The notes under the pieces: model-generated
Told to the model about the DNA's origin: nothing
The model's database searches: none
The model's input: only the letters and a program-made list of their open reading frames with translations
DNA from: a virus
DNA length: 64,000 nt
IMG/VR virus record: IMGVR_UViG_3300021963_000062
Coordinates: 33,016 to 97,015 of that record
Direction: 5' to 3' (one strand)
Translations under genes and position numbers: made by a program
Shown here: piece after piece, positions 12,166 to 30,051 of the stretch
How positions within the stretch are numbered: the stretch's first letter is position 1
How the letters are laid out: each line of letters starts with the position of its first letter

Positions 12166-13245
12166 TCAACCGATTGCAGGTGCGGTGAGTGCAACAGGAG
12201 TTGACTCAGCAGCAGCGAGGTCAAGAGGGAAGTTGTGAGCATTGCGCTCGTGCATTACCTCCATGCCCAGACCAGCACGGTTCAGAACATCAGCCCAAGT
12301 GTTAATAACTTTACCCTGACTATCAACGATAGACTGGTTAAAATTGAAACCGTTGAGATTGAAAGCCATCGTGGAAACACCAAGAGCGGTGAACCAGATA
12401 CCAACTACAGGCCATGCAGCAAGGAAGAAGTGCAGTGAACGAGAGTTGTTGAACGATGCGTATTGGAAGATGAGACGACCGAAGTAACCGTGAGCGGCTA
12501 CAATGTTGTAGGTCTCTTCTTCTTGTCCGAACTTGTAACCGTAGTTTTGGGACTCGTTTTCTGTTGTCTCACGAACGAGACTAGAGGTGACGAGAGATCC
12601 ATGCATAGCAGAGAAAAGAGAACCACCGAAGACCCCAGCAACTCCCAACATGTGGAAAGGATGCATGAGAATGTTGTGTTCCGCCTGGAAAACAAGCATG
12701 TAGTTGAAAGTTCCCGAAATCCCCAGAGGCATTGCGTCAGAGAAGGATCCTTGACCGAAGGGATAGACCAGAAAAACTGCGCTAGCAGCAGCAACGGGTG
12801 CGCTGTAGGCAACACAAATCCAAGGACGCATACCAAGTCGGTAAGAAAGTTCCCATTCACGGCCCATATAAGCATAGATACCAATTAGGAAGTGGAAGAC
12901 AACAAGTTGGAAAGGCCCACCGTTGTAGAGCCACTCATCTAGGGAAGCAGCTTCCCAGATGGGATAAAAGTGCAGTCCAATCGCGTTGGACGAAGGAATC
13001 ACAGCACCAGAGATGATGTTGTTTCCGTACATGAGTGAACCAGCAACGGGTTCACGGATACCATCAATGTCCACAGGGGGAGCACCGATGAATGCGATGA
13101 TGAAACAAGTCGTAGCAGCAAGCAGGCAAGGAATCATCAGGACTCCAAACCAACCAACATAAAGACGATTGTCGGTGGAAGTAACCCAGTTGCAGAACTG
13201 TTCCCAAGTATTTGATTTTTGTTGACGTGAAATTGTAGCAGTCAT
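12166..13245 (-). CDS. psbA: photosystem II D1 protein
   Basis: 359 residues, full length D1, with conserved helices and the processed C-terminal extension after NFPLDLAA. D1 is the fast-turnover reaction centre subunit that carries part of the Mn cluster and QB site. Phage psbA replaces damaged host D1 during infection. It has its own promoter and a structured leader of about 170 bases. Confidence 0.99.
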
Positions 13246-13414
13246 TTGTTTAAAAGGATAGTAAGACCATCAGGGAAATGGTGGAGATACTATGCTCCCC
13301 GCACCCTTAGCGGGGATATGAGAGACGGATTGGTAACCCTGCCTAGTCTCGGTCAAGCGGCAGGGAATACAATGTTACAGAAGATGAAAATCTCTTAACA
13401 TTTGTTTACCTATT
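13246..13414 (-). promoter_or_regulatory. structured 5' leader of psbA
   Basis: About 170 bases without a gene between the promoter and psbA. It contains a CCCCGC / GCGGGG hairpin near 13295-13315, an ACCAT / ATGGT hairpin nearer the gene, and another possible pairing around CCCTGCC / GGCAGGG (13337-13368). It may set mRNA stability or respond to conditions; nothing proves this. Confidence 0.45.
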
Positions 13415-13444
13415 TATCATACCATGCGGTAAACCGACTGTCAA
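13415..13444 (-). promoter_or_regulatory. sigma70-like promoter of psbA
   Basis: TTGACA (about 13439-13444) and TATGAT (13415-13420) with a 17-18-base spacer on the minus strand, overlapping the very end of gmd only slightly upstream. Confidence 0.7.
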
Positions 13445-13447
13445 GCC

Positions 13448-14422
13448 CTATTCGAGGATGTCAAACCAATGGTCAATCATCTCATCAATCATTGATTCAA
13501 AAGTATATTTTGGTTTCCATCCCAAAATATTTCTTACTTCCGATGAATCTCCTCGAAGATAATTAACTTCTTCTTTTCTTAAATATTTTTCATTTTGGAT
13601 AATGTGATCTTTATAGTTTAACCCAAGAGAATTAAAAGTATATTCACATAAATCCCTAACACTTCTTGTTTGTCCTGTAGATACAACCCAATCTCTGGGC
13701 TCAGGATAATTCAAAATAAGGTGCATTGCTCTTACATAATCATAAGAATGGCCCCAATCCCTATATGAATCCAAATTACCCAATTCCAATTTATCTCTTA
13801 TGCCTAATTTAATTTCTACAGCACCTTTTACAACTTTATTAGTTACAAAGTTTGTTCCTCTTCTTGGTGATTCGTGGTTAAATAAAATTCCATTACAAGC
13901 ATGAAGTTTATATCCTTCACGATAATGTCTAGTTAAATTAAACCCCATTACTTTTGAACATCCATAGGGGCTTACAGGTCTCATAGGAGTTTCAAGTCGT
14001 TGAAAGTTATCATTATCAATACTGTTTCCAAACATTTCAGAGGAACTTGCTTGATAAAACTTTGCATGTGGAACTTTTGTTCTTAAAGCCTCAAGTACAT
14101 TAAGAACTCCTAAAGAATTTGTTTTAATTGTAAATGAAGGTACATCAAAACTAACTCTTACATGACTCATTGCAGCAAGATTATAAACTTCATCTGGTTG
14201 AACCTCTTCAATTATTCTATACAAAGAGTGTTCATCTAATAAGTCTCCATAATGTCCATTAATATGATTGTCAAAAATATGATCAATTCTTTCTGTCTGA
14301 TTTTCAGCAACAGACAATCTACGAACTATTCCATGAACTTCATAACCAAGTTCGATTAAATGTTCGGATAGATAACTTCCATCTTGACCAGTAATGCCAG
14401 TAATTAAAGCAACTTTACTCAT
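13448..14422 (-). CDS. gmd: GDP-mannose 4,6-dehydratase
   Basis: 324 residues of the extended SDR family. NADP-binding motif TGITGQDGSYL at 8-18, catalytic SSSEMFG at about 126-132 and YGCSK at 153-157. It converts GDP-mannose to GDP-4-keto-6-deoxymannose, the precursor of GDP-fucose, GDP-colitose and related sugars. In this island the matching next step is the ColD-like enzyme at 19659-20828; no GDP-fucose synthase was seen. Four-base overlap with the WbuC-like gene. Confidence 0.93.
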   Translation of the reverse strand: MSKVALITGITGQDGSYLSEHLIELGYEVHGIVRRLSVAENQTERIDHIFDNHINGHYGDLLDEHSLYRIIEEVQPDEVYNLAAMSHVRVSFDVPSFTIKTNSLGVLNVLEALRTKVPHAKFYQASSSEMFGNSIDNDNFQRLETPMRPVSPYGCSKVMGFNLTRHYREGYKLHACNGILFNHESPRRGTNFVTNKVVKGAVEIKLGIRDKLELGNLDSYRDWGHSYDYVRAMHLILNYPEPRDWVVSTGQTRSVRDLCEYTFNSLGLNYKDHIIQNEKYLRKEEVNYLRGDSSEVRNILGWKPKYTFESMIDEMIDHWFDILE

Positions 14423-14856
14423 AAAAATACTTTATCATTTTCAATTCCAGTGTATGGGCCAGTTTTATATTCATAAACAATAGTATCATCCTCAAGAATT
14501 TTATATGTATGACCACCCTCAAATGTCATGGAACAATCACCAGAATTTATTACTTCTTCTGTTAAGAGTTTGCCGTCAATATCATACAAATAAACTCTTA
14601 CAGACCCTTTAATAATAACCCAAGATTCCTGTGCGATTATTTTTTCAGTAGGAGAATCTTTCCAAATATGTTGATGTGGTTTAAAAGTCTTATCTTTTTC
14701 CAATCTAAGAGTAGCCAACTGAAGAAATTGATTCTCTGGAGCAACGTTTGTTCTTTCTACTATGTCGGATACTCTATTAATAATATGAAGTAGTTTCTCT
14801 GGATGTTTTTTAGAATAGATACGTTTCATGCAGAAAAAATAATCACTAATATACAT
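14419..14856 (-). CDS. WbuC-like cupin
   Basis: 145 residues with a cupin core: FKPHQH near residue 67, ESWVIIKGSVRVYLYD, then GHTYKILEDDTIVYEYKTG. This fits WbuC-type proteins found in O-antigen clusters, whose exact role is unknown. An ATG at 14829 would remove nine residues and is equally possible. Divergent from the radical SAM genes. Confidence 0.7.
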   Translation of the reverse strand: MYISDYFFCMKRIYSKKHPEKLLHIINRVSDIVERTNVAPENQFLQLATLRLEKDKTFKPHQHIWKDSPTEKIIAQESWVIIKGSVRVYLYDIDGKLLTEEVINSGDCSMTFEGGHTYKILEDDTIVYEYKTGPYTGIENDKVFL

Positions 14857-14878
14857 AGTATATCTATCTTACTATAAA

Positions 14879-15718
14879 ATGTCAACCAATCTAATGGATG
14901 TAAAATTAGATATACACATAACACATAATTGCAATTTGACCTGCGAAAGTTGTTCCGATTTCACAAACGTTGGTTTAAATTGGATGATAACTAAAGATGA
15001 ATTTGCATCTTGGATAAAAAACTGGAACAAAAGAATTAGTCCAGATCAACTTGAAATATTAGGTGGAGAACCAACATTACATAAGGATCTAGAAGAATTA
15101 CTGTACATATCAAGAGAATTATGGGGTTCTGAACAAAAAATAACTTTATACACTAATGGTTTTTTCGTACACCTTCATCCAAATTTAGGAAAAGTGTTGA
15201 GAGAAACTAATATAAATCTTGAAGTTTCAATACACAGTATAGAAAAACATTATTTAAAAAAAATAAAAGATAATATTTTATTACTGAAGAAATGGAAATC
15301 TGAAGGTACTGATATTTTTTTCCTTGATTGTTTTAGTGATTGGAGAAAAATATATAAAGGTCATGGTATTTCAATATTGCCTTACGAGGATAATGATCCC
15401 GAGTCCAGTTGGAAAAATTGTTTTACATCTCCATGGAAATGTTTTCAATTATATGAAGGAAATCTTTGGAAATGTCCACCAATAACATATTTAAAAGAAC
15501 TGAATAAAAAACATGAAATTTCTAAAAAATGGGATCCATATTTAAAATATGAACCCCTAAAAGCCGATTGTTCTGATGAAGAATTAATGAAATTTTGGAA
15601 TAGTGAATGTATAGATATATGTGCTATGTGCCCTGCTAAGAAAATCAACATAGAAGTAAGAAGAGATCCTCTAATGAGTGTTTCGGAATTAGAAAAGTAT
15701 TACCAACAAAACACTTAA
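14879..15718 (+). CDS. radical SAM protein A
   Basis: 279 residues. The 4Fe-4S/SAM motif CNLTCESC lies at about 18-25, followed by the GGEPTLHKDL block. The C-terminal third is Cys-rich (SPWKCFQLYEGNLWKCPP and then ECIDICAMCPAKK), resembling the auxiliary cluster domain of SPASM/twitch enzymes. It is one of only a few plus-strand genes here and is followed by a close paralogue. Likely modifies a peptide or sugar nucleotide; substrate unknown. Confidence 0.85.
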   Translation: MSTNLMDVKLDIHITHNCNLTCESCSDFTNVGLNWMITKDEFASWIKNWNKRISPDQLEILGGEPTLHKDLEELLYISRELWGSEQKITLYTNGFFVHLHPNLGKVLRETNINLEVSIHSIEKHYLKKIKDNILLLKKWKSEGTDIFFLDCFSDWRKIYKGHGISILPYEDNDPESSWKNCFTSPWKCFQLYEGNLWKCPPITYLKELNKKHEISKKWDPYLKYEPLKADCSDEELMKFWNSECIDICAMCPAKKINIEVRRDPLMSVSELEKYYQQNT

Positions 15719-15750
15719 TCGAATATATACTATATCTAAATGAATATAAA

Positions 15751-16665
15751 ATGACTACGAATAAAGATTTAGGCCCCAAAACAACTACTCAAGATCCATG
15801 GATAATTGCTATTCATATAACTCATAATTGCAATTTAACTTGTGATAGTTGTTCAGACATGACTAATATTGGTCTGAACTGGATGATAACTAAAGATGAA
15901 TTTGTATCTTGGATAAAAAATTGGAATGAAAGAATCAAACCAGATCAATTCCATATATTAGGTGGAGAACCAACATTACATAAGGATCTAGAAGAATTCT
16001 TATACCTGGCTCGAGAACTATGGGGCCCAGACCAAGAGATCAGATTGATGAGTAATGGATTTTTTGTAGATCGTCATAAAAATTTAGGAAAAGTTCTTAA
16101 GGAAACTAATACATCAATCGATATTGGCCTCCATAGTAAAGAAAAAGATTACTTAGGTAAACTAAAAGATAATATTATATTGATGAAGAAGTGGAGAAAA
16201 GATGAAGGAACAACAGTAAACTTCATGGACTTCACTGAAGAAGGTTCAGGTTGGAATCCAAGTGGTAGAACTTGGAGAAGAATATACAAAGGTTATGGTG
16301 CATCAATGTTACCTTATGAAGACAATGATCCAGAATCTAGTTGGGAAAATTGTTGGATGGATGGTGCAAGATGTTTCCAATTATATCAAGGAAACCTCTG
16401 GAAGTGTCCACCAATAACATACTTATCAGAGGCAAAGAAAAAATATGGTGATCTACTATCGGAAAAGTGGGATCCATATCTTGCATACGAACCTTTAAAG
16501 CCAGAGTGTTCTGACGAAGAGTTAATGCAATTCTGGAAGAGTGAGTGCCTAAGTATATGTTCCATGTGTCCCGCTAAGCCACATTACATAGATAATCTAA
16601 AAAATCCTCTTATGAGTGTCTCGCAGTCCGAAAAATACTATCAGTCTACAGAACCAGTAACTTGA
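15751..16665 (+). CDS. radical SAM protein B, paralogue of A
   Basis: 304 residues, with CNLTCDSC, GGEPTLHKDL and the same C-terminal Cys pattern as protein A (ARCFQLYQGNLWKCPP, ECLSICSMCPAKP). A 39-base stretch at about 15060-15098 and 15960-15998 is identical between the two genes, so the duplication is recent or kept alike. Protein B has an extra N-terminal stretch and an insert near residue 165. Its 3' end overlaps the convergent oxygenase by 25 bases. Confidence 0.85.
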   Translation: MTTNKDLGPKTTTQDPWIIAIHITHNCNLTCDSCSDMTNIGLNWMITKDEFVSWIKNWNERIKPDQFHILGGEPTLHKDLEEFLYLARELWGPDQEIRLMSNGFFVDRHKNLGKVLKETNTSIDIGLHSKEKDYLGKLKDNIILMKKWRKDEGTTVNFMDFTEEGSGWNPSGRTWRRIYKGYGASMLPYEDNDPESSWENCWMDGARCFQLYQGNLWKCPPITYLSEAKKKYGDLLSEKWDPYLAYEPLKPECSDEELMQFWKSECLSICSMCPAKPHYIDNLKNPLMSVSQSEKYYQSTEPVT

Positions 16666-17147
16666 ATTGCATATCTATCTCTCATACTAAAATTGTAAAA
16701 TGCATGTGGTTGGAATCCTCTCCAACCAAAACAATCTCCAGACTTCCATTTACCGAAACAATCATCTTCAATTTGAATAATTTGTCCAGGAAAACTATCT
16801 TCTAACATCAAAATATATCTAACTATCTTTTCGATTTTAACGTCATATATTTTTGTGTAAGTGGAAAGTGGATCAGTATGTACTGGCAAATATTTTCCTG
16901 GTTTAAATAAATTTACAGCTACAGCAACATTGTTCAGAAAATGAAACTTTGGTTTCACATAATCATGTAAAAAAGTTGGCATAGAACTTGGTTCTTGACA
17001 GTTATATAAAGTCATGTGGTTTTTGTCATGTCCACAACTTATATACTTGTCCACAAGATCATAATCTTTATGGGTTGTGAGAAAATAATCCAAATGATAA
17101 AATTCGGTTACATCCCATTTTGGTTCTATTCTATATCTTAGTGACAT
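16641..17147 (-). CDS. 2OG-Fe(II) oxygenase, Asp/Asn-hydroxylase-like
   Basis: 168 residues. Iron-binding HTD in YLPVHTDPL (about residue 93), distal His in FQPHAFYN followed by RYAIQVTGS with the 2OG-binding Arg. This matches the aspartyl/asparaginyl beta-hydroxylase-like branch. It shares one base with the next gene, so it is translated with the sugar-island genes. Substrate unknown. Confidence 0.75.
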   Translation of the reverse strand: MSLRYRIEPKWDVTEFYHLDYFLTTHKDYDLVDKYISCGHDKNHMTLYNCQEPSSMPTFLHDYVKPKFHFLNNVAVAVNLFKPGKYLPVHTDPLSTYTKIYDVKIEKIVRYILMLEDSFPGQIIQIEDDCFGKWKSGDCFGWRGFQPHAFYNFSMRDRYAIQVTGSVD

Positions 17148-18241
17148 TATGCTGGGGAAAATTCTAAGTACTTTTGAATTAACTCAAGATCATTTTTATT
17201 CCTCAAAACAAGGTACTCATTGGCAAAGTGTAGTTCTACTCCACATTCTAGAGCTAAATTGAGAATAGTATTTCTCCACTTTTTTTTATCTGGAAGAGAG
17301 AATATACTTAACATAACAATTCCATCTGGTTTTCCCTTAATATAACTTTGAAGATTTGGACACCAATCTAGATACTCATTTTCAAATTGAGAGTCTGAGT
17401 AATTAATTTTGTTTTTTTCACAGTAGTCATCAATAACATTTCTTTGCATAGGCAAAGGAATGTTTTTTGAATATTTACTACTCCAAGAATCGTATGTAAT
17501 AAAATGTCTTCCCGTATTGTCTTCAGAAACATCGGAAAGATAATCTCCAGGAAATCTCAACCAAGCTCCAGGAAGTCTCCTAAGATACGATTCCCCCTCA
17601 ATTAAAATTCTCATATCCATACTTACTCTAGTAATATCGGTATTATTATTCACATTTCCATGCATATGTTCTTGAAAAAACAAATGACATTGGCCATAAT
17701 CAAGAGTAACTGGAAAAGAATGTTTGAGACATTCTTCTTCAAATTTTTCTAGAGACCATCTATTGTTTATACACTGTTTGGTAATTTTCCTAGAAATTTT
17801 TAAGGGAAGTATTTGCATACTATTACTTTCATAACATTTAGTAAAAGGCATCCAAACTGTTCTTAAACCTTTTCCATTTCCAACCCAAATACCCTGGTGA
17901 AAAGCAACTCTACGTGATTTTTTTGATTGATTAGGTTCTACAATTCTTAAAGTTGGATATCGTTGAATTAAATATTTTTTATTATCAATTCTCGATGGAA
18001 TATACTCTTTCATAAATTCATCTACCATTATCATAAATTCTTTTCTAAGTGATGCTTTATGAAAATGTTTTCTAATTAATGGAAGTTCTTCTGAACTAAC
18101 TTGGAGATGAAGTTTTTCTAATTCTGTTACTTCTGGTTTTATTTCTTGAATTACGGAAATAGCCCATTCTCTAAATTTAAATTTAGTACTATCATAATTT
18201 AGAGTTTTATTATCCCATTCCAATTGCGTTTTTGTTATCAT
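17147..18241 (-). CDS. sporadic carbohydrate cluster 2OG oxygenase fused to a TIGR04323-like domain
   Basis: 364 residues in two parts. Residues 1-250 resemble phytanoyl-dioxygenase-like enzymes of sporadic carbohydrate clusters: RYPTLRIVEP, VAFHQGIWVGNGKG, then QEHMHGNVNNNT. Residues 250-364 (VIDDYCEKN, GIVMLSIFSLP, GVELHFANEYL) resemble the separate TIGR04323 protein that usually sits next to such an oxygenase. A fusion of the two is my reading. It fits the neighbouring carbamoyltransferase and sugar dehydratase. Confidence 0.65.
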   Translation of the reverse strand: MITKTQLEWDNKTLNYDSTKFKFREWAISVIQEIKPEVTELEKLHLQVSSEELPLIRKHFHKASLRKEFMIMVDEFMKEYIPSRIDNKKYLIQRYPTLRIVEPNQSKKSRRVAFHQGIWVGNGKGLRTVWMPFTKCYESNSMQILPLKISRKITKQCINNRWSLEKFEEECLKHSFPVTLDYGQCHLFFQEHMHGNVNNNTDITRVSMDMRILIEGESYLRRLPGAWLRFPGDYLSDVSEDNTGRHFITYDSWSSKYSKNIPLPMQRNVIDDYCEKNKINYSDSQFENEYLDWCPNLQSYIKGKPDGIVMLSIFSLPDKKKWRNTILNLALECGVELHFANEYLVLRNKNDLELIQKYLEFSPA

Positions 18242-18243
18242 AT

Positions 18244-19662
18244 TTAATTAAAAATTTTTACGTTATAAGTCTTTTCCCATTCTATCATATTACTATGATC
18301 GTTGACAATAGGATATCCTTTAATGTTCAAACTAGTATTTAAAAGGATTGGACAACCGGTTTTATTTTTCCATTGAAATAAAAGATCATAAAACTTTGGG
18401 TTGTCCTTCTTACTTAAAACCTGAACTCTACTAGTACAATCAACATGTTGTATAGAAGTCAACTCTTTTGATTTACATCTTACAGCAAACTGCATATACT
18501 TATTACCACCTTCAAAATATTCCTTGGCATATTCTTCCAAAACAACTGGTGCAAATGGTCTGAACTTTTGTCTTTTTTTTATCTCATTGACTTTATCTTT
18601 TATAAAAGGATCTCTAGGATCTGCAATTAAACTTCTATTACCTAAAGCTCTAGGGCCAAATTCCGATTTGCCCCTTGCAATACCACAAACTTTTTTATCT
18701 AAAAGATAATCAACAATTTCTTCATTTGTAGAGTTATATCCCATATCATATCCAAGATATGGTCCTTTCCAATCAATGTGTTTTTTCTTATGTGCAAGAA
18801 CCGATCCAATAGAAGAACCACTATCTCCAGGAGAAGGCATAATCCATATATTATCATAATAATTGTATGCAATTGGATTTGCAGAACAATTCAATGCACA
18901 TCCGCCCATCACTACAAGATTATCAGACTTAACCAAAGATTTAGATTTCTCTAATACATTTTTGAATAAAATTTCATAAACTGATTGTGTTCCTGCAGCA
19001 ATATCAAAATAATCCTCTTCCGTTTTAAGATCCGATCTCCAATTTAAACAACCTTTATGAAGATTATTTTTAAACCTAAGATCTTCCCCAATAAAATCAT
19101 CAAAAATATCACAAGTCAATCTACTAGGATCTCCATAAGCAGACATACCCATCAGAATATATTCTTCTTCGTTTGGTTTCAGTCCGCACCTTTGTGTCAT
19201 TGCAGAGTACCAAAGTCCGATACTATGTGGATAATTACGTTGAAATTTTAGTTTTAACTTGTTTCCCTGAGCTTCCCAGATTGTGAGTGTTTGAAATTCA
19301 CCTATAGCGTCAATAACCACCACGCAACATTCATCAAACTCGCTGGTGAAATAACCAGCACAAGCATGAGTATAGTGATGATCATAATACTTGATTGGAA
19401 CATCAACATACTTTTTGACGTTCTGGATCCAACCCTGGCCCGCAAGAAGTTGTCTAAGTGTTTTCTTATATGGGTTCTCATACCAACATACTAGCTCTGG
19501 TTTCCCAAACTTTAGTGCATAGTTGATTATGCCATCATTCAACTGAGAATCATTTTTGACGCCACTAAATCTCTCACTTTCACTTGCAAAAACAAGAGTG
19601 TCCTTAACAAAAACCGAAAGTGCAGCATTGTGACTTTCCGATGATATTCCCCAGGTTATCAT
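18244..19662 (-). CDS. carbamoyltransferase (NodU/TobZ family)
   Basis: 472 residues. N-terminal Kae1-like part with GISSESHNAA and the metal-binding DHHYTHACAGYF block (about residues 95-106); C-terminal part with SEFGPRALGNRS and LLNTSLN. The family transfers carbamoyl from carbamoyl phosphate, via carbamoyl-AMP, to a sugar hydroxyl. Here a deoxysugar made by the adjacent enzymes is a reasonable acceptor. Four-base overlap with the ColD-like gene. Confidence 0.9.
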   Translation of the reverse strand: MITWGISSESHNAALSVFVKDTLVFASESERFSGVKNDSQLNDGIINYALKFGKPELVCWYENPYKKTLRQLLAGQGWIQNVKKYVDVPIKYYDHHYTHACAGYFTSEFDECCVVVIDAIGEFQTLTIWEAQGNKLKLKFQRNYPHSIGLWYSAMTQRCGLKPNEEEYILMGMSAYGDPSRLTCDIFDDFIGEDLRFKNNLHKGCLNWRSDLKTEEDYFDIAAGTQSVYEILFKNVLEKSKSLVKSDNLVVMGGCALNCSANPIAYNYYDNIWIMPSPGDSGSSIGSVLAHKKKHIDWKGPYLGYDMGYNSTNEEIVDYLLDKKVCGIARGKSEFGPRALGNRSLIADPRDPFIKDKVNEIKKRQKFRPFAPVVLEEYAKEYFEGGNKYMQFAVRCKSKELTSIQHVDCTSRVQVLSKKDNPKFYDLLFQWKNKTGCPILLNTSLNIKGYPIVNDHSNMIEWEKTYNVKIFN

Positions 19663-20828
19663 AAGTCACCAATAATATCTTCCAAGACTTTGAATCTTTT
19701 ATTTCCTACTAGATGACTATTTCCAATATAAAGTCCATATTCATGAATAATATCTACATTAAATGGTGCATCACCAACGATAGAATAGTTTTTTAAGAAT
19801 GGTTGTTTAAGTAGATTGCCTGCGACAATAGGTCGATATTCAATTCCATATTCTTCAAATTTTGAGATGAGATTTAAATACGTTTCTTTCTTTTTGCAAA
19901 TAAACGGAAGACAAAGGTTACTGCTAGTATTATCTTCCTTAGGAATATAGAATTTATCTGGATATTTTTTAAGTAAAGATAACAGTCTTTGATAGTTATT
20001 TTTTCTAGATTCGATAATAAAATCTATACGTCTGAGTTGGGAACTACCAAGAACTGCACAGATTTCATGATTTCTGAAGTTAAACCCGTCAGTTGGAAAA
20101 AGAAAACTTGGAGAAATGTTGGGATATTCTTCTTGATATTTTTTAAAGTTTTCTGGAGAAGCTTCTCTGGCAATACCATGACTACGTTTCATACGCATCA
20201 ATTCATATAGTTCCTTATCACAAGTAGAAATCATACCACCTTCAATACTAGTCATATGATGACTGAAATAAAAACTGAATGTGGCTCCCAGAGAATTCGC
20301 ACCATGTTTCACACCTTGAGAATTAGATACCCCCTGAGCTTCACAGATATCCTCAAGAATTAGAGCGTCTGGAAAAATTTCCTGATATTTATCCAATTCT
20401 GCTTCCAATCCAAGAAGGTGAGTAACAAAAATTATTTTGATGTCTGGATGAAGCTCTTTTACTTGTTTTAGTTTTTCGACATCAAAACTAAGAGAATTTA
20501 AATTGATATCTGCAAATACGGGTTCAAATCCAGTTTGCAACACTGGAGAAATATTAGTAGACCAAGTACATGCAGGCACTAATACTTTATCTCCGTTTTT
20601 CAATCCATACTTTTCTTTCACTGCAGATAAAAGTAGGATGTTTGCGGAACTACCAGAATTTACATAAAGGGAATATTTGGATCCCAACCATTGATTCCAT
20701 TCGGATTCAAACTTTCTCACTTTTTCTCCATTAGTAAATCTTTTGGTAGTGAGAATAAATTTAATCATTCTTAGTTTATCGCCCCAAGTTATGATATCAT
20801 CCATCAAGGGCCAAATATTTTTAGTCAT
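19659..20828 (-). CDS. DegT/DnrJ-fold PLP enzyme with His in place of Lys (ColD-like 3-dehydratase)
   Basis: 389 residues of the sugar aminotransferase fold (VNSGSSANILLL, VPACTWSTNISP, LEDICEAQG). The usual PLP-binding lysine is replaced: the site reads SFYFSHHMTSIEGG at about 185-198. Histidine here defines the 3-dehydratases ColD (GDP-4-keto-6-deoxymannose 3-dehydratase) and RfbH/E1. With Gmd encoded in the same island, the ColD reaction giving a GDP-3,6-dideoxy-4-ketosugar is the best prediction. Terminator follows upstream of it in the peroxiredoxin gap. Confidence 0.8.
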   Translation of the reverse strand: MTKNIWPLMDDIITWGDKLRMIKFILTTKRFTNGEKVRKFESEWNQWLGSKYSLYVNSGSSANILLLSAVKEKYGLKNGDKVLVPACTWSTNISPVLQTGFEPVFADINLNSLSFDVEKLKQVKELHPDIKIIFVTHLLGLEAELDKYQEIFPDALILEDICEAQGVSNSQGVKHGANSLGATFSFYFSHHMTSIEGGMISTCDKELYELMRMKRSHGIAREASPENFKKYQEEYPNISPSFLFPTDGFNFRNHEICAVLGSSQLRRIDFIIESRKNNYQRLLSLLKKYPDKFYIPKEDNTSSNLCLPFICKKKETYLNLISKFEEYGIEYRPIVAGNLLKQPFLKNYSIVGDAPFNVDIIHEYGLYIGNSHLVGNKRFKVLEDIIGDL

Positions 20829-20842
20829 ATCAATTCAATAAA

Positions 20843-20868
20843 GAAAAAAAGAGGAGGTTTCCCTCCTC
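20843..20868 (-). terminator. intrinsic terminator after the peroxiredoxin gene
   Basis: Minus strand GAGGAGG-GAAA-CCTCCTC followed by seven T, between the peroxiredoxin stop and the ColD-like gene. Confidence 0.85.
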
Positions 20869-20878
20869 AAAATATTTA

Positions 20879-21415
20879 TTAGACTGCCAGAGATGGAATA
20901 TTTTGTTTTACGTATTCAAGAACCTTTTCAGGAGAAGACCATTCATAAGGATCGGACTCTGCGTTATCTGTAATACCATCTTCCATAAAGATCTGTTCGA
21001 TCACACCGTCATTGATTACTGCAGCATAACGCCAAGAGCGAGCCGCGAAACCAAGGTTACGTTTCTGAACAAGCATACCCATGGCAGTAGTGAACTCACC
21101 GTTACCATCAGGAATCAGTTTGACTTTCTCAATATTCTGATCTTTAGCCCATGCGTTCATCACAAAGGCATCGTTGACAGACAGACAATAGATTTCATCA
21201 ATACCCTGTTCTGCAAACATATCATAGAATGCTTCGTAACCAGGAAGTTGATAAGCACTACAAGTAGGGGTAAATGCACCAGGAAGGGCAAACAGAACTA
21301 CTTTCTTTCCGTTGAAGAGTTCCTCAGTAGAACGAGTCACAAACTCTCCGTCTTCACGGAACATAAAGTCCACTGAAGGGACTACAGATTTTTCTTCAGG
21401 AGCTAGTTGAGGCAT
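20879..21415 (-). CDS. peroxiredoxin (Prx5-like)
   Basis: 178 residues with the peroxidatic site PGAFTPTCS (Cys52). Typical of the Prx5/AhpE-like group that reduces H2O2 and organic peroxides using thiols. It is part of the redox and photosynthesis block and overlaps the next gene by 20 bases. May limit oxidative damage from continued photosynthesis. Confidence 0.9.
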   Translation of the reverse strand: MPQLAPEEKSVVPSVDFMFREDGEFVTRSTEELFNGKKVVLFALPGAFTPTCSAYQLPGYEAFYDMFAEQGIDEIYCLSVNDAFVMNAWAKDQNIEKVKLIPDGNGEFTTAMGMLVQKRNLGFAARSWRYAAVINDGVIEQIFMEDGITDNAESDPYEWSSPEKVLEYVKQNIPSLAV

Positions 21416-21668
21416 GTTTTTGTTTTAATTCAGGATTAGGTTGAGAAGGAACAACAGGGTTCCTAGATTTATTTTTAATAACGATGAATGCATCGTTTTG
21501 ATATGTAACTGTACCAAAAGGTTTAGACCACTTTGGATTACTGTTTGGGTTGGTGGCAGTACCAGTTACACATACTCCACCGATTTCTACAGCGATTTCA
21601 TCGCCATATTCCCATCCGAGATTTTGAAGGGCAATAGCAAGTTGTCCTAACCATGCACCTTCACTCAT
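21396..21668 (-). CDS. hypothetical protein next to ferredoxin (90 aa)
   Basis: Start ATG at 21668 chosen because it overlaps the petF stop. Contains a beta-rich core (EYGDEIAVEIGGVCVTGTAT) and a basic tail. Possibly a small barrel. Function unknown. Confidence 0.6.
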   Translation of the reverse strand: MSEGAWLGQLAIALQNLGWEYGDEIAVEIGGVCVTGTATNPNSNPKWSKPFGTVTYQNDAFIVIKNKSRNPVVPSQPNPELKQKHASTSS

Positions 21669-21961
21669 CACAGATTTTCCTCTTGCTCGGTAAGAATGAC
21701 ACAATCACTAGTGGGGTATGCCACACAGGTGAGGACGAACCCATTAGAGATTTGATCGTCATCCAGAAATGTTTGATCTTCATTGTCTACTGTCCCACTG
21801 ATAAGTTTTCCAGCGCAAGCAGAACAAGCACCAGCACGGCAACTGGAAGGTAGATCAACGCCAGCTTCTTCAGCAGCGTCCAAAATATACTGGTCTTTAG
21901 GGCATTGGATAGTCGTTTCGGATCCATCGGGGGAACGAAGAGTTACATTAAAAGAGGTCAT
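21668..21961 (-). CDS. petF: plant-type 2Fe-2S ferredoxin
   Basis: 97 residues with the cluster ligands Cys41, Cys46, Cys49 and Cys79 (CRAGACSAC ... LTC). It carries electrons from photosystem I to ferredoxin-dependent enzymes. Cyanophage petF is known to feed bilin reductases or other enzymes; no such gene is in this window. Confidence 0.95.
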
Positions 21962-22017
21962 TGTGATTTAATAACAACAATAAGAGTTTATCAAGAAAGT
22001 CTTAAGAAGTCAATAGA

Positions 22018-22143
22018 CTAGATGGGGTTGTATGCGGGAATCATCATACCCCCACCTTGATCATCGTCATCGTCTGCATCGTTACTACCAATGGCACTTA
22101 TGAAAAACCAAGTCCCTATTAGTATTACTGCAAACAATAACAT
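22018..22143 (-). CDS. micro-membrane protein (41 aa)
   Basis: ATG at 22143 overlaps the hli stop (TGATG). One membrane segment (MLLFAVILIGTWFFIS), then a run of Asp (DADDDDD) and a Gly/Met tail. Translationally coupled to hli, which supports it as a real gene. Function unknown. Confidence 0.6.
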   Translation of the reverse strand: MLLFAVILIGTWFFISAIGSNDADDDDDQGGGMMIPAYNPI

Positions 22144-22262
22144 CAGAGTACACCAGGAATGATTTGTCCGGTGATCAGATAAGAACCAACTCCAGCAACG
22201 AAACCGAGCATTGCAAGACGAGCGTTGAGGATCTCAGCCTCAGGGGTGAAACCGAATTTCAT
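22143..22262 (-). CDS. hli: high-light inducible protein (39 aa)
   Basis: Starts MKFGFTPEAEILNARLAMLG with the Hli core ExxNxRxAMxGF and a single transmembrane helix. A perfect AAGGAG site precedes the ATG. Hli proteins bind chlorophyll and carotenoid and protect photosystem II. Confidence 0.9.
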   Translation of the reverse strand: MKFGFTPEAEILNARLAMLGFVAGVGSYLITGQIIPGVL

Positions 22263-22273
22263 AATTGTTCTCC

Positions 22274-22360
22274 TTAGTAAGTTTCAGAAAGTTTTTCTAC
22301 GGAAATTGCCAACAAAACAAAGAAGGCAATACTAGTAATTGTAAACAGTACTTCAGTCAT
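22274..22360 (-). CDS. 28-residue micro-membrane protein
   Basis: ATG at 22360, TAA at 22274. The product is one hydrophobic helix (TITSIAFFVLLAISVEK) flanked by polar ends. It lies between two hli genes and is the size of small photosystem subunits, but I cannot match it to a named one. Confidence 0.45.
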   Translation of the reverse strand: MTEVLFTITSIAFFVLLAISVEKLSETY

Positions 22361-22368
22361 CGTCTGTC

Positions 22369-22572
22369 TCAGAAGATACCGAAGAAAAGTTTACCAGTGA
22401 ATGCATAGGAAATCGCACCAGCGATGATGCCCATCATGGCCCAACGACCATTGTACATTTCAGTGGTCTGCATAGGAGTCAAGAGACCTTTGCGGTTATA
22501 CTCTTGGTAAACCATTTGGGGTTCTTTGGCCCACATGTTTTGTTGACCACGATCATTCGTTGTTACAGTCAT
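22369..22572 (-). CDS. hli: high-light inducible protein (67 aa)
   Basis: Start at 22572 chosen because the promoter at 22600-22628 leaves a 20-base leader. The Hli motif reads EMYNGRWAMMGIIAG, followed by a membrane helix. The longer frame upstream runs through the promoter and is not used. Role in photoprotection as for the other hli. Confidence 0.92.
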   Translation of the reverse strand: MTVTTNDRGQQNMWAKEPQMVYQEYNRKGLLTPMQTTEMYNGRWAMMGIIAGAISYAFTGKLFFGIF

Positions 22573-22599
22573 TTTCGTTTTATTACGAATTGTTACACA

Positions 22600-22628
22600 A
22601 TTATATAGGAAATCTAAAGAGTCGTCAA
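22600..22628 (-). promoter_or_regulatory. sigma70-like promoter of the hli operon
   Basis: TTGACG (22623-22628), 17-base spacer, TATAAT (22600-22605) on the minus strand. Confidence 0.75.
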
Positions 22629-22650
22629 GCCCCTTATGTTTGCGATTCAT

Positions 22651-22678
22651 AAAAAAACCACCCCAGAAAGGGGTGGTT
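22651..22678 (-). terminator. intrinsic terminator
   Basis: Minus strand AACCACCCC / GGGGTGGTT stem followed by seven T, after the secreted small protein gene. Confidence 0.85.
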
Positions 22679-22701
22679 CCACTCAACTTATGAGTATCTT
22701 A

Positions 22702-23079
22702 TCAGAAAGAGTAACGAACTTTCAGTTCACCACCGAGGGCAAACACTTCGCTATCAAAACCATACTCACCAGCAACTTTAGCCTTACCAGTCAGACTTCC
22801 GGCGATAGGGAAGTTAACACCAACTTCACCAACAGCAACACCCTCATTGGTGCCACCATTGTTCCACTCATAACCAGGGCCGATTTCACCGAACACGGTC
22901 ACACCATTGGAAGCCTTTTGTTCATAACCAACGCGAAGTTCGGTTTGAGCACCAGTGAAATCACCACCATCGGTGATAGTACCAGCAGCAGTGGTCTTAG
23001 ACTCAACATAAGGGCCAGCGAAAGCAGCAGTGGCAAGGAAAGGGGCAACAGCAGCAGTTGCGATAACAGATTTAATCAT
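22702..23079 (-). CDS. secreted small outer-membrane barrel-like protein (125 aa)
   Basis: Signal peptide of about 21 residues ending ATAAFA before GPYVE. The rest is made of alternating beta strands (TELRVGYEQK, VTVFGEIGPGYEW, ELKVRYSF) and ends in Phe, as outer-membrane barrels do. It has its own promoter and terminator, so it is expressed as a single gene. Possibly inserted in the host outer membrane; function unknown. Confidence 0.7.
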   Translation of the reverse strand: MIKSVIATAAVAPFLATAAFAGPYVESKTTAAGTITDGGDFTGAQTELRVGYEQKASNGVTVFGEIGPGYEWNNGGTNEGVAVGEVGVNFPIAGSLTGKAKVAGEYGFDSEVFALGGELKVRYSF

Positions 23080-23157
23080 TTAATTAATACCTCGTAAATT
23101 TACTTGCGGAATGGTTACCCGCAGATGAAAGAAGACTTGACTTGTCTTCGTTCCCTA

Positions 23158-23187
23158 ATTTTAACATTCTCTTTGGGATCATGTCAA
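23158..23187 (-). promoter_or_regulatory. sigma70-like promoter
   Basis: TTGACA (23182-23187), 18-base spacer, TAAAAT (23158-23163) on the minus strand, before the secreted barrel-like gene. Confidence 0.65.
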
Positions 23188-28120: not shown

Positions 28121-29263
28121 TTAAATATTAATTGACATTATACTAATATCTTTAGGTGGTTTACCAAATCTAACTTTGTCGCCATACTTCTCAGATAGAT
28201 GGTCCAATTGTTTGATGATAGATTCAACGTCATCAATGTAAACGGTATAACCTTCATTCAGAAGATCTACACAAAGACGGTATTGTTGACTCTCGGTTAG
28301 AATATCAGTTCCTTTTTTATAGGAAACATATTCAAAATAAAATGGGCGACTATCCGTATTTTTCTTTAAGAAATACTTTTTGAGGAACTTTGCATGTTCA
28401 TCATTAAAGTTATCAGTAGTCTCACCCAAATTATAATTCAAACCTTGTTTCTTTGCAAATGCAGCAAAGGATCGGTTATCTCTTGGAAGACATGGGCCAC
28501 CAAACCCATATCCATAGTTCAAATATTTATTACCAACTCTAGAGTCGTTGCCGATGGCATTAAGAACGGTCTCAATCTCATTTTCCAAACCAGCCATGAT
28601 CATTACTTCACCAACCATGTTTGCATAACTGATCTTAGTAGTCAGATAACAATTCACTGCGAGTTTAACAAGTTCTGCAGCAGTTGTTGACATGCAACTA
28701 ATCTTTGGTTTGGTAACTTGAATCTTCTTATACATCTCAGATAGAGAATGCATAACTTCTTCATTATCACCACCGATCAGAACCATATCTGCATGAGTAA
28801 GATCTTTAATGATGGATCCCTGTGCGATAAATTCTGGATTGTAAATAACACTTACACCATAAGACTTAAGTTGTTCTTGGAACCTTGCACAATCTCCTGG
28901 ATTTGTAGTACATCCAACAACAAATGTCTTACCAGAAACATCACCAGCAGTTTGAATATCGCGGATGACATCATAGACTGCGTTTACATTATAAGAACCA
29001 TCATCTAAAGATGGAGTTGCAACAAGAGTAAAGATAATATTACACTCTCTGATAACTCTTTTATTATCAGTTGTCGCTTCAATGTTGCGAGCTTCTTTCA
29101 AGTGTTCTGCAACATGAGGTTCCGCAGTTTCTATGATTTTTTTATTGAGGTTTTCTACATAATCCTCACGAATGTCTGAGACCAGGACATCATATCCTGC
29201 ATTCTCCATAAGGAGTGCAAGACAGATTCCCAGTCTCCCTGCGCCGATTAATCCTATTTTCAT
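28121..29263 (-). CDS. UDP-glucose/UDP-ManNAc 6-dehydrogenase family
   Basis: 380 residues. NAD motif GLIGAGRLG at 4-12, the TPSLDDGS loop, and the catalytic Cys258 in GFGGPCLPRDN. The family oxidises a UDP-hexose twice to the uronic acid. The best guess is UDP-glucuronate-type product. Its stop is two bases from the next gene, and it overlaps nadE by four bases. Confidence 0.9.
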   Translation of the reverse strand: MKIGLIGAGRLGICLALLMENAGYDVLVSDIREDYVENLNKKIIETAEPHVAEHLKEARNIEATTDNKRVIRECNIIFTLVATPSLDDGSYNVNAVYDVIRDIQTAGDVSGKTFVVGCTTNPGDCARFQEQLKSYGVSVIYNPEFIAQGSIIKDLTHADMVLIGGDNEEVMHSLSEMYKKIQVTKPKISCMSTTAAELVKLAVNCYLTTKISYANMVGEVMIMAGLENEIETVLNAIGNDSRVGNKYLNYGYGFGGPCLPRDNRSFAAFAKKQGLNYNLGETTDNFNDEHAKFLKKYFLKKNTDSRPFYFEYVSYKKGTDILTESQQYRLCVDLLNEGYTVYIDDVESIIKQLDHLSEKYGDKVRFGKPPKDISIMSINI

Positions 29264-30051
29264 AGCTTGAATGTGGGAATTTCTACCATCTTATGTTTGT
29301 TTTGCATGTGAAACTTCTGATACACATTGATTGCATTAGTTTGTTCTTCATTGAATGTTAGTGGATCTTCTAAGAGACCCCTTTCCATAACCCACTCAAG
29401 AAGTGCATAAGAAGTTCCGATCTGATCTTCATCAGTTCTACCATCATCCCAAAGACCATCGGTGGGTGGTGCAGAAACAATTCTCTCATCTACACCTAGA
29501 TGTTCACCAAGCATCCATACTTCAGTCTTGTAGAGATCTGCAATAGGAGCAATATCAATACCACCATCACCGTACTTAGTATAGAAACCTACACCATAAT
29601 CTTCAACTTTATTACCAGTTCCTACGACAATACCATTAACTGTTGTGGCAACTTGGTACAAAGTTACCATACGAAGTCTTGAACGAGTATTGGCTTGTGC
29701 AAGTTTATTAGTTGCAAAATTTTCACCAATATCATTAGATATTGTTTGAAGGAAAGAATCATAGACCGAACTCATATCAGTCTTGATAAACTTTACATTA
29801 CTAAATTTTGACTCCAACCACTTACCATGAGCATCAGAAAGAGACTCCTGATTTTCAAGTTGATTAATAGGCATCCCAACAACGTAAGTTGGCATACCAG
29901 TCAAAGCACAAAGAGTAGAAACCACAGAGGAGTCAATTCCTCCAGAGATTCCTACTACAAGACTCTTAAGTTTAGGATGGGTGATGCAATAATCGGAAAT
30001 CCATTTTACAATCCGATCTTCCAACTCATCATAGTCTTTGATACGATTCAT
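29260..30051 (-). CDS. nadE: NAD synthetase (NadE-like)
   Basis: 263 residues. ATP-pyrophosphatase loop ISGGIDSS at about 35-42, then NTRSRLRMVTLY, VVGTGNKVEDYGVGF and KYGDGGIDIAPIADL, as in ammonia-dependent NAD synthetases. It forms NAD from deamido-NAD. It sits next to an NAD-dependent sugar dehydrogenase inside a glycan island, an unusual place; a related amidating role on a sugar nucleotide is a possible alternative. Confidence 0.88.
   Translation of the reverse strand: MNRIKDYDELEDRIVKWISDYCITHPKLKSLVVGISGGIDSSVVSTLCALTGMPTYVVGMPINQLENQESLSDAHGKWLESKFSNVKFIKTDMSSVYDSFLQTISNDIGENFATNKLAQANTRSRLRMVTLYQVATTVNGIVVGTGNKVEDYGVGFYTKYGDGGIDIAPIADLYKTEVWMLGEHLGVDERIVSAPPTDGLWDDGRTDEDQIGTSYALLEWVMERGLLEDPLTFNEEQTNAINVYQKFHMQNKHKMVEIPTFKL

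Follow-up and report, generated by a model that had tools for sequence, protein, structure and literature searches.

Why should a phage carry two similar radical SAM genes on the strand opposite to the sugar genes that surround them, and what might their products do? The window in which the pair is found, a stretch of 64,000 nucleotides from a 97,015-base virus record, belongs to a marine cyanophage, its photosystem II D1 and D2 genes matching those of hundreds of Synechococcus and Prochlorococcus phages. The two open reading frames, RSP1 (14879-15718, 279 amino acids) and RSP2 (15751-16665, 304 amino acids), are intact, lie on the plus strand exactly where an earlier note on this DNA had placed them, and are flanked on both sides by minus-strand genes of a sugar cassette (13448-14856 and 16641-20828), with gaps of 22 and 32 nt and an overlap at the other side, where the 3' ends of RSP2 and of a convergent oxygenase gene share 25 nt (16641-16665). 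The same arrangement is present in a separate assembly (L003), not necessarily from an independent sample, of which 10,450 nt are 100% identical to the window over 12735-23184. The two proteins share 66% identity across 280 columns (E 1e-140), with RSP2 possessing additional N-terminal residues and a derived loop of 10-11 residues (at about residues 163-173), immediately ahead of a conserved W-x3-Y segment.

As to the class of enzyme, both proteins belong to the radical SAM superfamily. Both score above the Pfam Radical_SAM cut-off (1.4e-10 for RSP1 and 2.8e-11 for RSP2), their models match radical SAM structures, and both carry the CxxxCxxC motif of the SAM-binding [4Fe-4S] cluster (codons 14930-14953, residues 18, 22 and 25 in RSP1; codons 15829-15852, residues 27, 31 and 34 in RSP2; plus strand). 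A census of cysteines in two family alignments (A3 with 32 rows and A4 with 20 rows, bacterial proteins included in the latter) recognizes the same invariant residues in each, the three of the radical SAM cluster and exactly four in the C-terminal part, so that the CxxxCxxC motif, whose loss in relatives the earlier note had set as grounds for doubt, is invariant in every row. The four C-terminal cysteines follow the pattern C-x17-C ... C-x2-C in RSP1 (15419-15631, plus strand; residues 181, 199, 248 and 251) and C201-x17-C219 ... C270-x2-C273 in RSP2 (16351-16569, plus strand), while outside the clusters H128, W175, Q210 and K218 (RSP2 numbering) are conserved. SPASM domains are defined by a seven-Cys motif, CX9-15GX4C-gap-CX2CX5CX3C-gap-C, with two auxiliary clusters (PMC6231123), whereas in Twitch domains, a shortened form of SPASM, the Cys ligands hold one auxiliary cluster (PMC9012708, PMC6231123). 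Four invariant cysteines rather than seven thus point to a single auxiliary cluster, of the Twitch and not the SPASM type, and Pfam SPASM finds no match in either protein; the Cys tails described earlier as SPASM-like are real, only their type needs to be corrected. With this pattern, and with a Twitch enzyme as the best fold match, RSP1 and RSP2 class as Twitch-domain proteins in which the cluster itself is predicted. PHROGs contain no full-length group for either protein, offering core matches only, and all of the NCBIfam matches are far under their cut-offs, that to N_Twi_rSAM (NF033640) included (21.0 and 23.7 bits versus a cut-off of 170). PADLOC pVip profiles match the N-terminal half of both proteins (43 and 39 bits), which would suit a viperin-like antiviral or nucleotide-modifying protein; however, this match stops where the shared radical SAM core stops, NCBIfam viperin scores (33.8 and 31.5 bits) fall far below the cut-off of 180, the genes are located in a phage sugar cassette, and we know of no viperin possessing a four-Cys auxiliary cluster, all of which makes such a role most improbable.

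Predicted structures narrow the class further. AF2 models are good for both proteins (pLDDT 92.3 for RSP1 and 88.6 for RSP2). By VIA-align, the RSP1 model matches SpeY best (Z 21.6, rmsd 2.9 over 247 residues), followed by BtrN (Z 13.5), and the RSP2 model also matches SpeY best (Z 21.2, rmsd 2.9 over 251 residues), again followed by BtrN (Z 12.8), placing SpeY about 8 Z units above every other structure in both cases. The match to SpeY is also returned by Foldseek (E 1.2e-10), and SpeY is the first PDB chain in two sequence profile searches (1.5e-12 and 1.7e-17). This protein is an enzyme of spectinomycin biosynthesis. Its PDB entries (7wzv, 7wzx, 7x0b) name it a Twitch radical SAM dehydrogenase. 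The overall fold predicted for RSP1 and RSP2 is that of SpeY and BtrN.

The surroundings of the pair are those of a glycan cassette, which spans 13448 to 20828 on the minus strand. Upstream of RSP1 it encodes a GDP-mannose 4,6-dehydratase-like protein (GMD; 13448-14422; PF16363, 2.5e-111) and, as the divergent neighbor of RSP1, a WbuC-like cupin (14419-14856; TIGR04366, 41.4 bits against a cut-off of 42). Convergent with RSP2 is a 2OG-Fe(II) oxygenase-like gene (16641-17147; PF05118, a weak match of 16.6 bits, below the cut-off of 22.6), and homologues of this oxygenase cluster adjoin the radical SAM gene in other phages. It is followed by a fusion of a sporadic-carbohydrate-cluster 2OG oxygenase (TIGR04324, 84.6 bits against 150) with a LIC12192 domain (TIGR04323, 50.2 bits against 55), both scores being below the curated cut-offs (17147-18241; no tblastn match in the cultured-phage collection), by a NodU/Nol-like O-carbamoyltransferase (18244-19662; PF02543 and PF16861; phrog_1601), and by a ColD/WbdK-like GDP-4-keto-6-deoxymannose 3-dehydratase (19659-20828; PDB 2gms, 7.3e-58). 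In the motif FSHHMTSIEGG of the last protein, a His occupies the position of the PLP Lys of DegT aminotransferases, a replacement that fits a 3-dehydratase rather than an aminotransferase. A plant-type 2Fe-2S ferredoxin gene (21668-21961) is found 5 kb from the pair, and it would be speculation to name its product as the reductant of RSP1 and RSP2. A second sugar cluster, at 23-35 kb, encodes a GT25, three GT11, one GT10 and one GT7-like enzyme, a UDP-glucose dehydrogenase-like protein and two epimerases; an NAD synthase-like gene (29260-30051; PF02540, 1.2e-47) adjoins the UDP-glucose dehydrogenase-like gene there. The phage record also holds a third radical SAM gene, outside the window (G000:C1:7259-8527; L105 7259-8527), of the N_Twi_rSAM type (NF033640, 339 bits) and positioned between baseplate-like and ssb-like genes.

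We propose, giving the proposal about an even chance, that RSP1 and RSP2 are paralogous Twitch radical SAM oxidoreductases of the SpeY/BtrN type, acting in a phage cassette for the synthesis or decoration of an unusual deoxy-sugar glycan, and that they are tandem duplicates of which RSP2 has diverged in its loop. In the putative reaction, the CxxxCxxC [4Fe-4S] cluster would cleave SAM reductively, the resulting 5'-deoxyadenosyl radical would abstract the carbinol hydrogen at a hydroxylated carbon of the putative substrate, a sugar, nucleotide sugar or cyclitol, and the auxiliary [4Fe-4S] cluster, fully ligated by Cys, would take up an electron, leaving a ketone that neighboring enzymes could process. 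Fold, cysteine pattern, duplication and glycan surroundings are computed results; the dehydrogenase reaction, a sugar as substrate and a division of labor between the copies are inferred. A somewhat unlikely variant keeps the family and the glycan cassette and assumes a different radical reaction, such as epimerization, deoxygenation or deamination of a sugar. Related radical SAM scaffolds also carry out epimerization, deamination, decarboxylation and peptide crosslinking, and the chemistry is not fixed by the fold alone; the fold lists include, at lower ranks, BlsE (Z 11) and DesII (Z 10), further radical SAM enzymes with sugar substrates, and the nearby ColD-like dehydratase and GMD would yield 4-keto-deoxysugars in need of more tailoring. 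However, the two top-ranking structures with a single auxiliary cluster are dehydrogenases, SpeY as well as BtrN, and SpeY leads everything else by 8 Z units.

The other function to be considered is that of a protein or peptide maturase, either RiPP-like or working alongside 2OG oxygenases and GT25 enzymes on a virion protein, which we find quite unlikely. SuiB and SkfB are present in the fold lists (Z about 12-13), the record of phage S-SCSM2R annotates its homologue as a 'maturase, SkfB/NifB/PqqE family', and 2OG oxygenases are common neighbors of the family. However, neither protein has an RRE or N-terminal peptide-binding domain, the chains starting just 17-26 residues before the first cluster Cys, and NCBIfam scores for RiPP maturases are all far under cut-off. 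Nor does the cassette offer space beside RSP1 and RSP2 for the small peptide substrate gene that the earlier note had suggested looking for, since the genes there adjoin each other directly or overlap. Small ORFs are conserved beside the uncultured relatives (c8, c12, c13, c23, c32 and others); as candidates for RiPP precursors they were rejected, as they lack core-peptide-like features and resemble ordinary small phage proteins.

As to the origin of the two copies of the proposed dehydrogenase, comparison of RSP1 with RSP2 gives dS 1.53, dN 0.22 and dN/dS 0.14, and a dS of about 1.5 with such a ratio indicates an old duplicate with purifying selection on both copies. All cluster cysteines are kept in both, in agreement with the earlier suggestion of duplication with retained function. 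The identical stretch that had been noted between the genes exists, and its longest run is 44 nt rather than 39, encoding ILGGEPTLHKDLEE at 15056-15099 in RSP1 and recurring at 15955-15998 in RSP2, both on the plus strand. A run of this length is in excess of what codon shuffling produces (p = 0.00045), suggesting a later, small conversion tract, and RSP1 equals RSP2 at three sites within it where the RSP2 copy of a related phage (L004) differs; the tract thus probably stems from gene conversion after the duplication.

Two syntenic phages inform on the order of events. L007 (about 82% nucleotide identity) has a single copy at the position of RSP1, likewise on the plus strand inside a minus-strand cluster, and lacks both RSP2 and the next 2OG gene. 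L004 possesses RSP2 (94%) and is devoid of RSP1; what remains of the latter, in the interval that separates the cupin gene from RSP2, is its first 8 nt, along with a stretch matching the RSP1 end plus the intergenic region, and from these remnants a deletion of RSP1 in the L004 lineage is the most likely event. RSP1, RSP2, L004 and L007 all have TATAAAATG at the start codons. A sigma70-like promoter candidate, TTGACA-N17-TATACT (14857-14885, minus strand, 11 of 12 positions matching), is placed so as to drive the cupin and GMD genes, its -35 element overlapping the RSP1 start codon, and its sequence is kept in L007 and, after the RSP1 deletion, in L004. As promoter-like sites are overall no commoner than in shuffled sequence, the case for this site is built on its near-perfect match, position and conservation; for a plus-strand promoter of RSP1, the same scan returns weak matches only. 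Upstream of RSP2, a decayed copy, TAGTCA-N17-TATAGT (15729-15757, minus strand, 9 of 12), would be a footprint of the duplicated unit, the upstream repeat there (D6) being 71% alike. The simplest account is that one gene together with its upstream region, including the divergent minus-strand cupin/GMD promoter, was duplicated in tandem, that RSP1 retained the ancestral position, and that the promoter role was lost in the copy at RSP2. RSP2 would then have diverged in the loop just ahead of the Twitch domain, probably toward a second position or substrate; this loop ahead of the W-x3-Y segment suggests a second specificity, making two related substrates, as proposed earlier, plausible.

The family extends well beyond this locus. 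A profile scan of viral contigs recognized 229 places encoding a relative; the 80 best of these were retained. Only two records of cultured or single-cell phages encode one, S-SCSM2R (38-43%) and marine virus AG-345-D19 (28%). In the nearer phages, the neighboring genes encode GT25, a short DegT, GMD, a carbamoyltransferase, the carbohydrate-cluster fusion, a StrB1-like relative of inosamine-phosphate amidinotransferase (1bwd, 1.2e-57) and N_Twi radical SAM proteins. In a large uncultured group (L016-L067), for which the search with RSP1 and RSP2 found no cultured relative, two copies, A and B, often occur 3-4 kb apart among 2OG oxygenases, copy B being usually followed by a carbamoyltransferase and then a GDSL/SGNH-like protein (SGNH by sequence inspection); the gene set of this group comprises two radical SAM genes, three or four 2OG oxygenases, a carbamoyltransferase, an SGNH-like protein and a transaldolase. 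The location of these many relatives amid 2OG oxygenase genes, with no recognized glycosyltransferases, counts against the glycan reading. A genome scan added 22 bacterial loci (one of them, L090, a phage-like contig), from Planctomycetota, Bradyrhizobium and other bacteria. Several adjoin glycosyltransferases or sugar enzymes (in Planctomycetes, Bradyrhizobium, Desulfovibrio, Methylovulum and a betaproteobacterium), with GT2, GT25/sulfotransferase, DegT and epimerase genes as neighbors, and in the planctomycete relatives (L097-L101) a GT25-sulfotransferase fusion and a GT2 gene adjoin the radical SAM gene within a conserved multi-gene cluster. The link to sugar genes claimed earlier is thus seen in the window, in other phages and in cells. 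The opposite prospect, of homologues that are always housekeeping enzymes of the host, does not agree with those found, which are not housekeeping genes. A host gene of that kind was also considered and rejected: none of the 22 bacterial loci is cyanobacterial, in a scan that begins from short patterns and in which a missing match is therefore not proof of absence.

Pairs of these enzymes recur. After dereplication, two family members are present in 12 of 18 long loci, and 12 radical SAM genes have been reported in the genome of one T4-like marine phage (PMC5332604); several are known from Campylobacter phages as well. The earlier view of radical SAM pairs as unusual in phage genomes thus does not hold, and with so many uncultured phages encoding enzyme pairs, we appear to deal with an under-described family rather than an oddity. 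In the tree, RSP1 and RSP2 are sisters (99/86), while in L008/L009 a member of the window clade is combined with one of the S-SCSM2R clade, in L010-L012 with one of the A clade, and in the uncultured group A is combined with B. These differing combinations indicate that pairing arose more than once. Whether the second copy of the proposed enzyme adds a function is a separate matter. It is possible, if doubtful, that it is redundant, serving gene dosage with no functional divergence, as either copy appears dispensable, L004 having only the RSP2-type copy plus the RSP1 scar and L007 only one copy. Against redundancy, and in favor of the putative division of labor, both copies have been kept long under constraint, the derived RSP2 loop is also found in L004, and other phages repeatedly combine copies of distinct clades.

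A broader version of the proposal, which we offer as speculative and on balance unlikely, is that of a phage-dominated family of SpeY-like Twitch dehydrogenases, repeatedly deployed as sets of two, which are tandem duplicates in this phage and pairs from distinct clades in others. Within a set, each enzyme would oxidize its own hydroxyl group on a shared surface sugar, for decoration by carbamoyl-, amino- or amidino-transferases, antibiotic-style aminocyclitol and sugar chemistry thus remodeling the glycan of the infected cell or of the particle. If the assignment is true, marine phages bear radical dehydrogenases that install keto groups in sugars, often as paired enzymes. Such chemistry is familiar mainly from antibiotic pathways, and its use by phages would matter for the question of how they change the surface of the cells they infect. 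The family itself, which is without a full-length PHROG and is found at 229 places in one scan of viral contigs, would thereby gain an assignment concrete enough to test.

As to known systems, the presence of radical SAM genes in glycan or LPS regions of marine phages is already reported, for the host recognition cluster of pelagimyophages, an LPS-rich region of T4-like marine phages (PMC7029224); in the part of that source used here, subfamily, mechanism and pairing are not given, and the likeness noted here is one of region. What appears to be new is the SpeY-type assignment, the recognition of a single-auxiliary-cluster family with recurrent pairing (in the literature searched, we found no prior description of either), and the reconstruction of the RSP1/RSP2 duplication. 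The NF033640 proteins often adjoin the family in other phages (L007-L012, L014, L048/L049) and, unlike RSP1 and RSP2, have the Twitch domain at the N-terminus. The radical SAM gene of Synechococcus phage S-SCSM2R (PQ898602.1) belongs to the same family and to a GT25/amidinotransferase cluster, but it is a single copy and shares its strand with its neighbors. BtrN, the 2-deoxy-scyllo-inosamine dehydrogenase (4m7t), oxidizes its substrate and has a single auxiliary cluster, fully ligated by four Cys (PMC9012708, PMC6231123), the number invariant in the family of RSP1 and RSP2; however, while it is the second-best structural match, its Z is just 12.8-13.5 and its sequence similarity is low (profile E 1.4e-5, core only). 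SpeY shares with RSP1 and RSP2 a fold over about 250 residues, comprising the radical SAM core and the C-terminal domain, with the first two auxiliary cysteines aligned, although identity is 16-17% and the SpeY CxxC ligands are not seen in the residue-level alignment. The setting differs as well: SpeY belongs to a Streptomyces antibiotic pathway, whereas the family of RSP1 and RSP2 is found in a phage glycan cassette, often as paralogous pairs.
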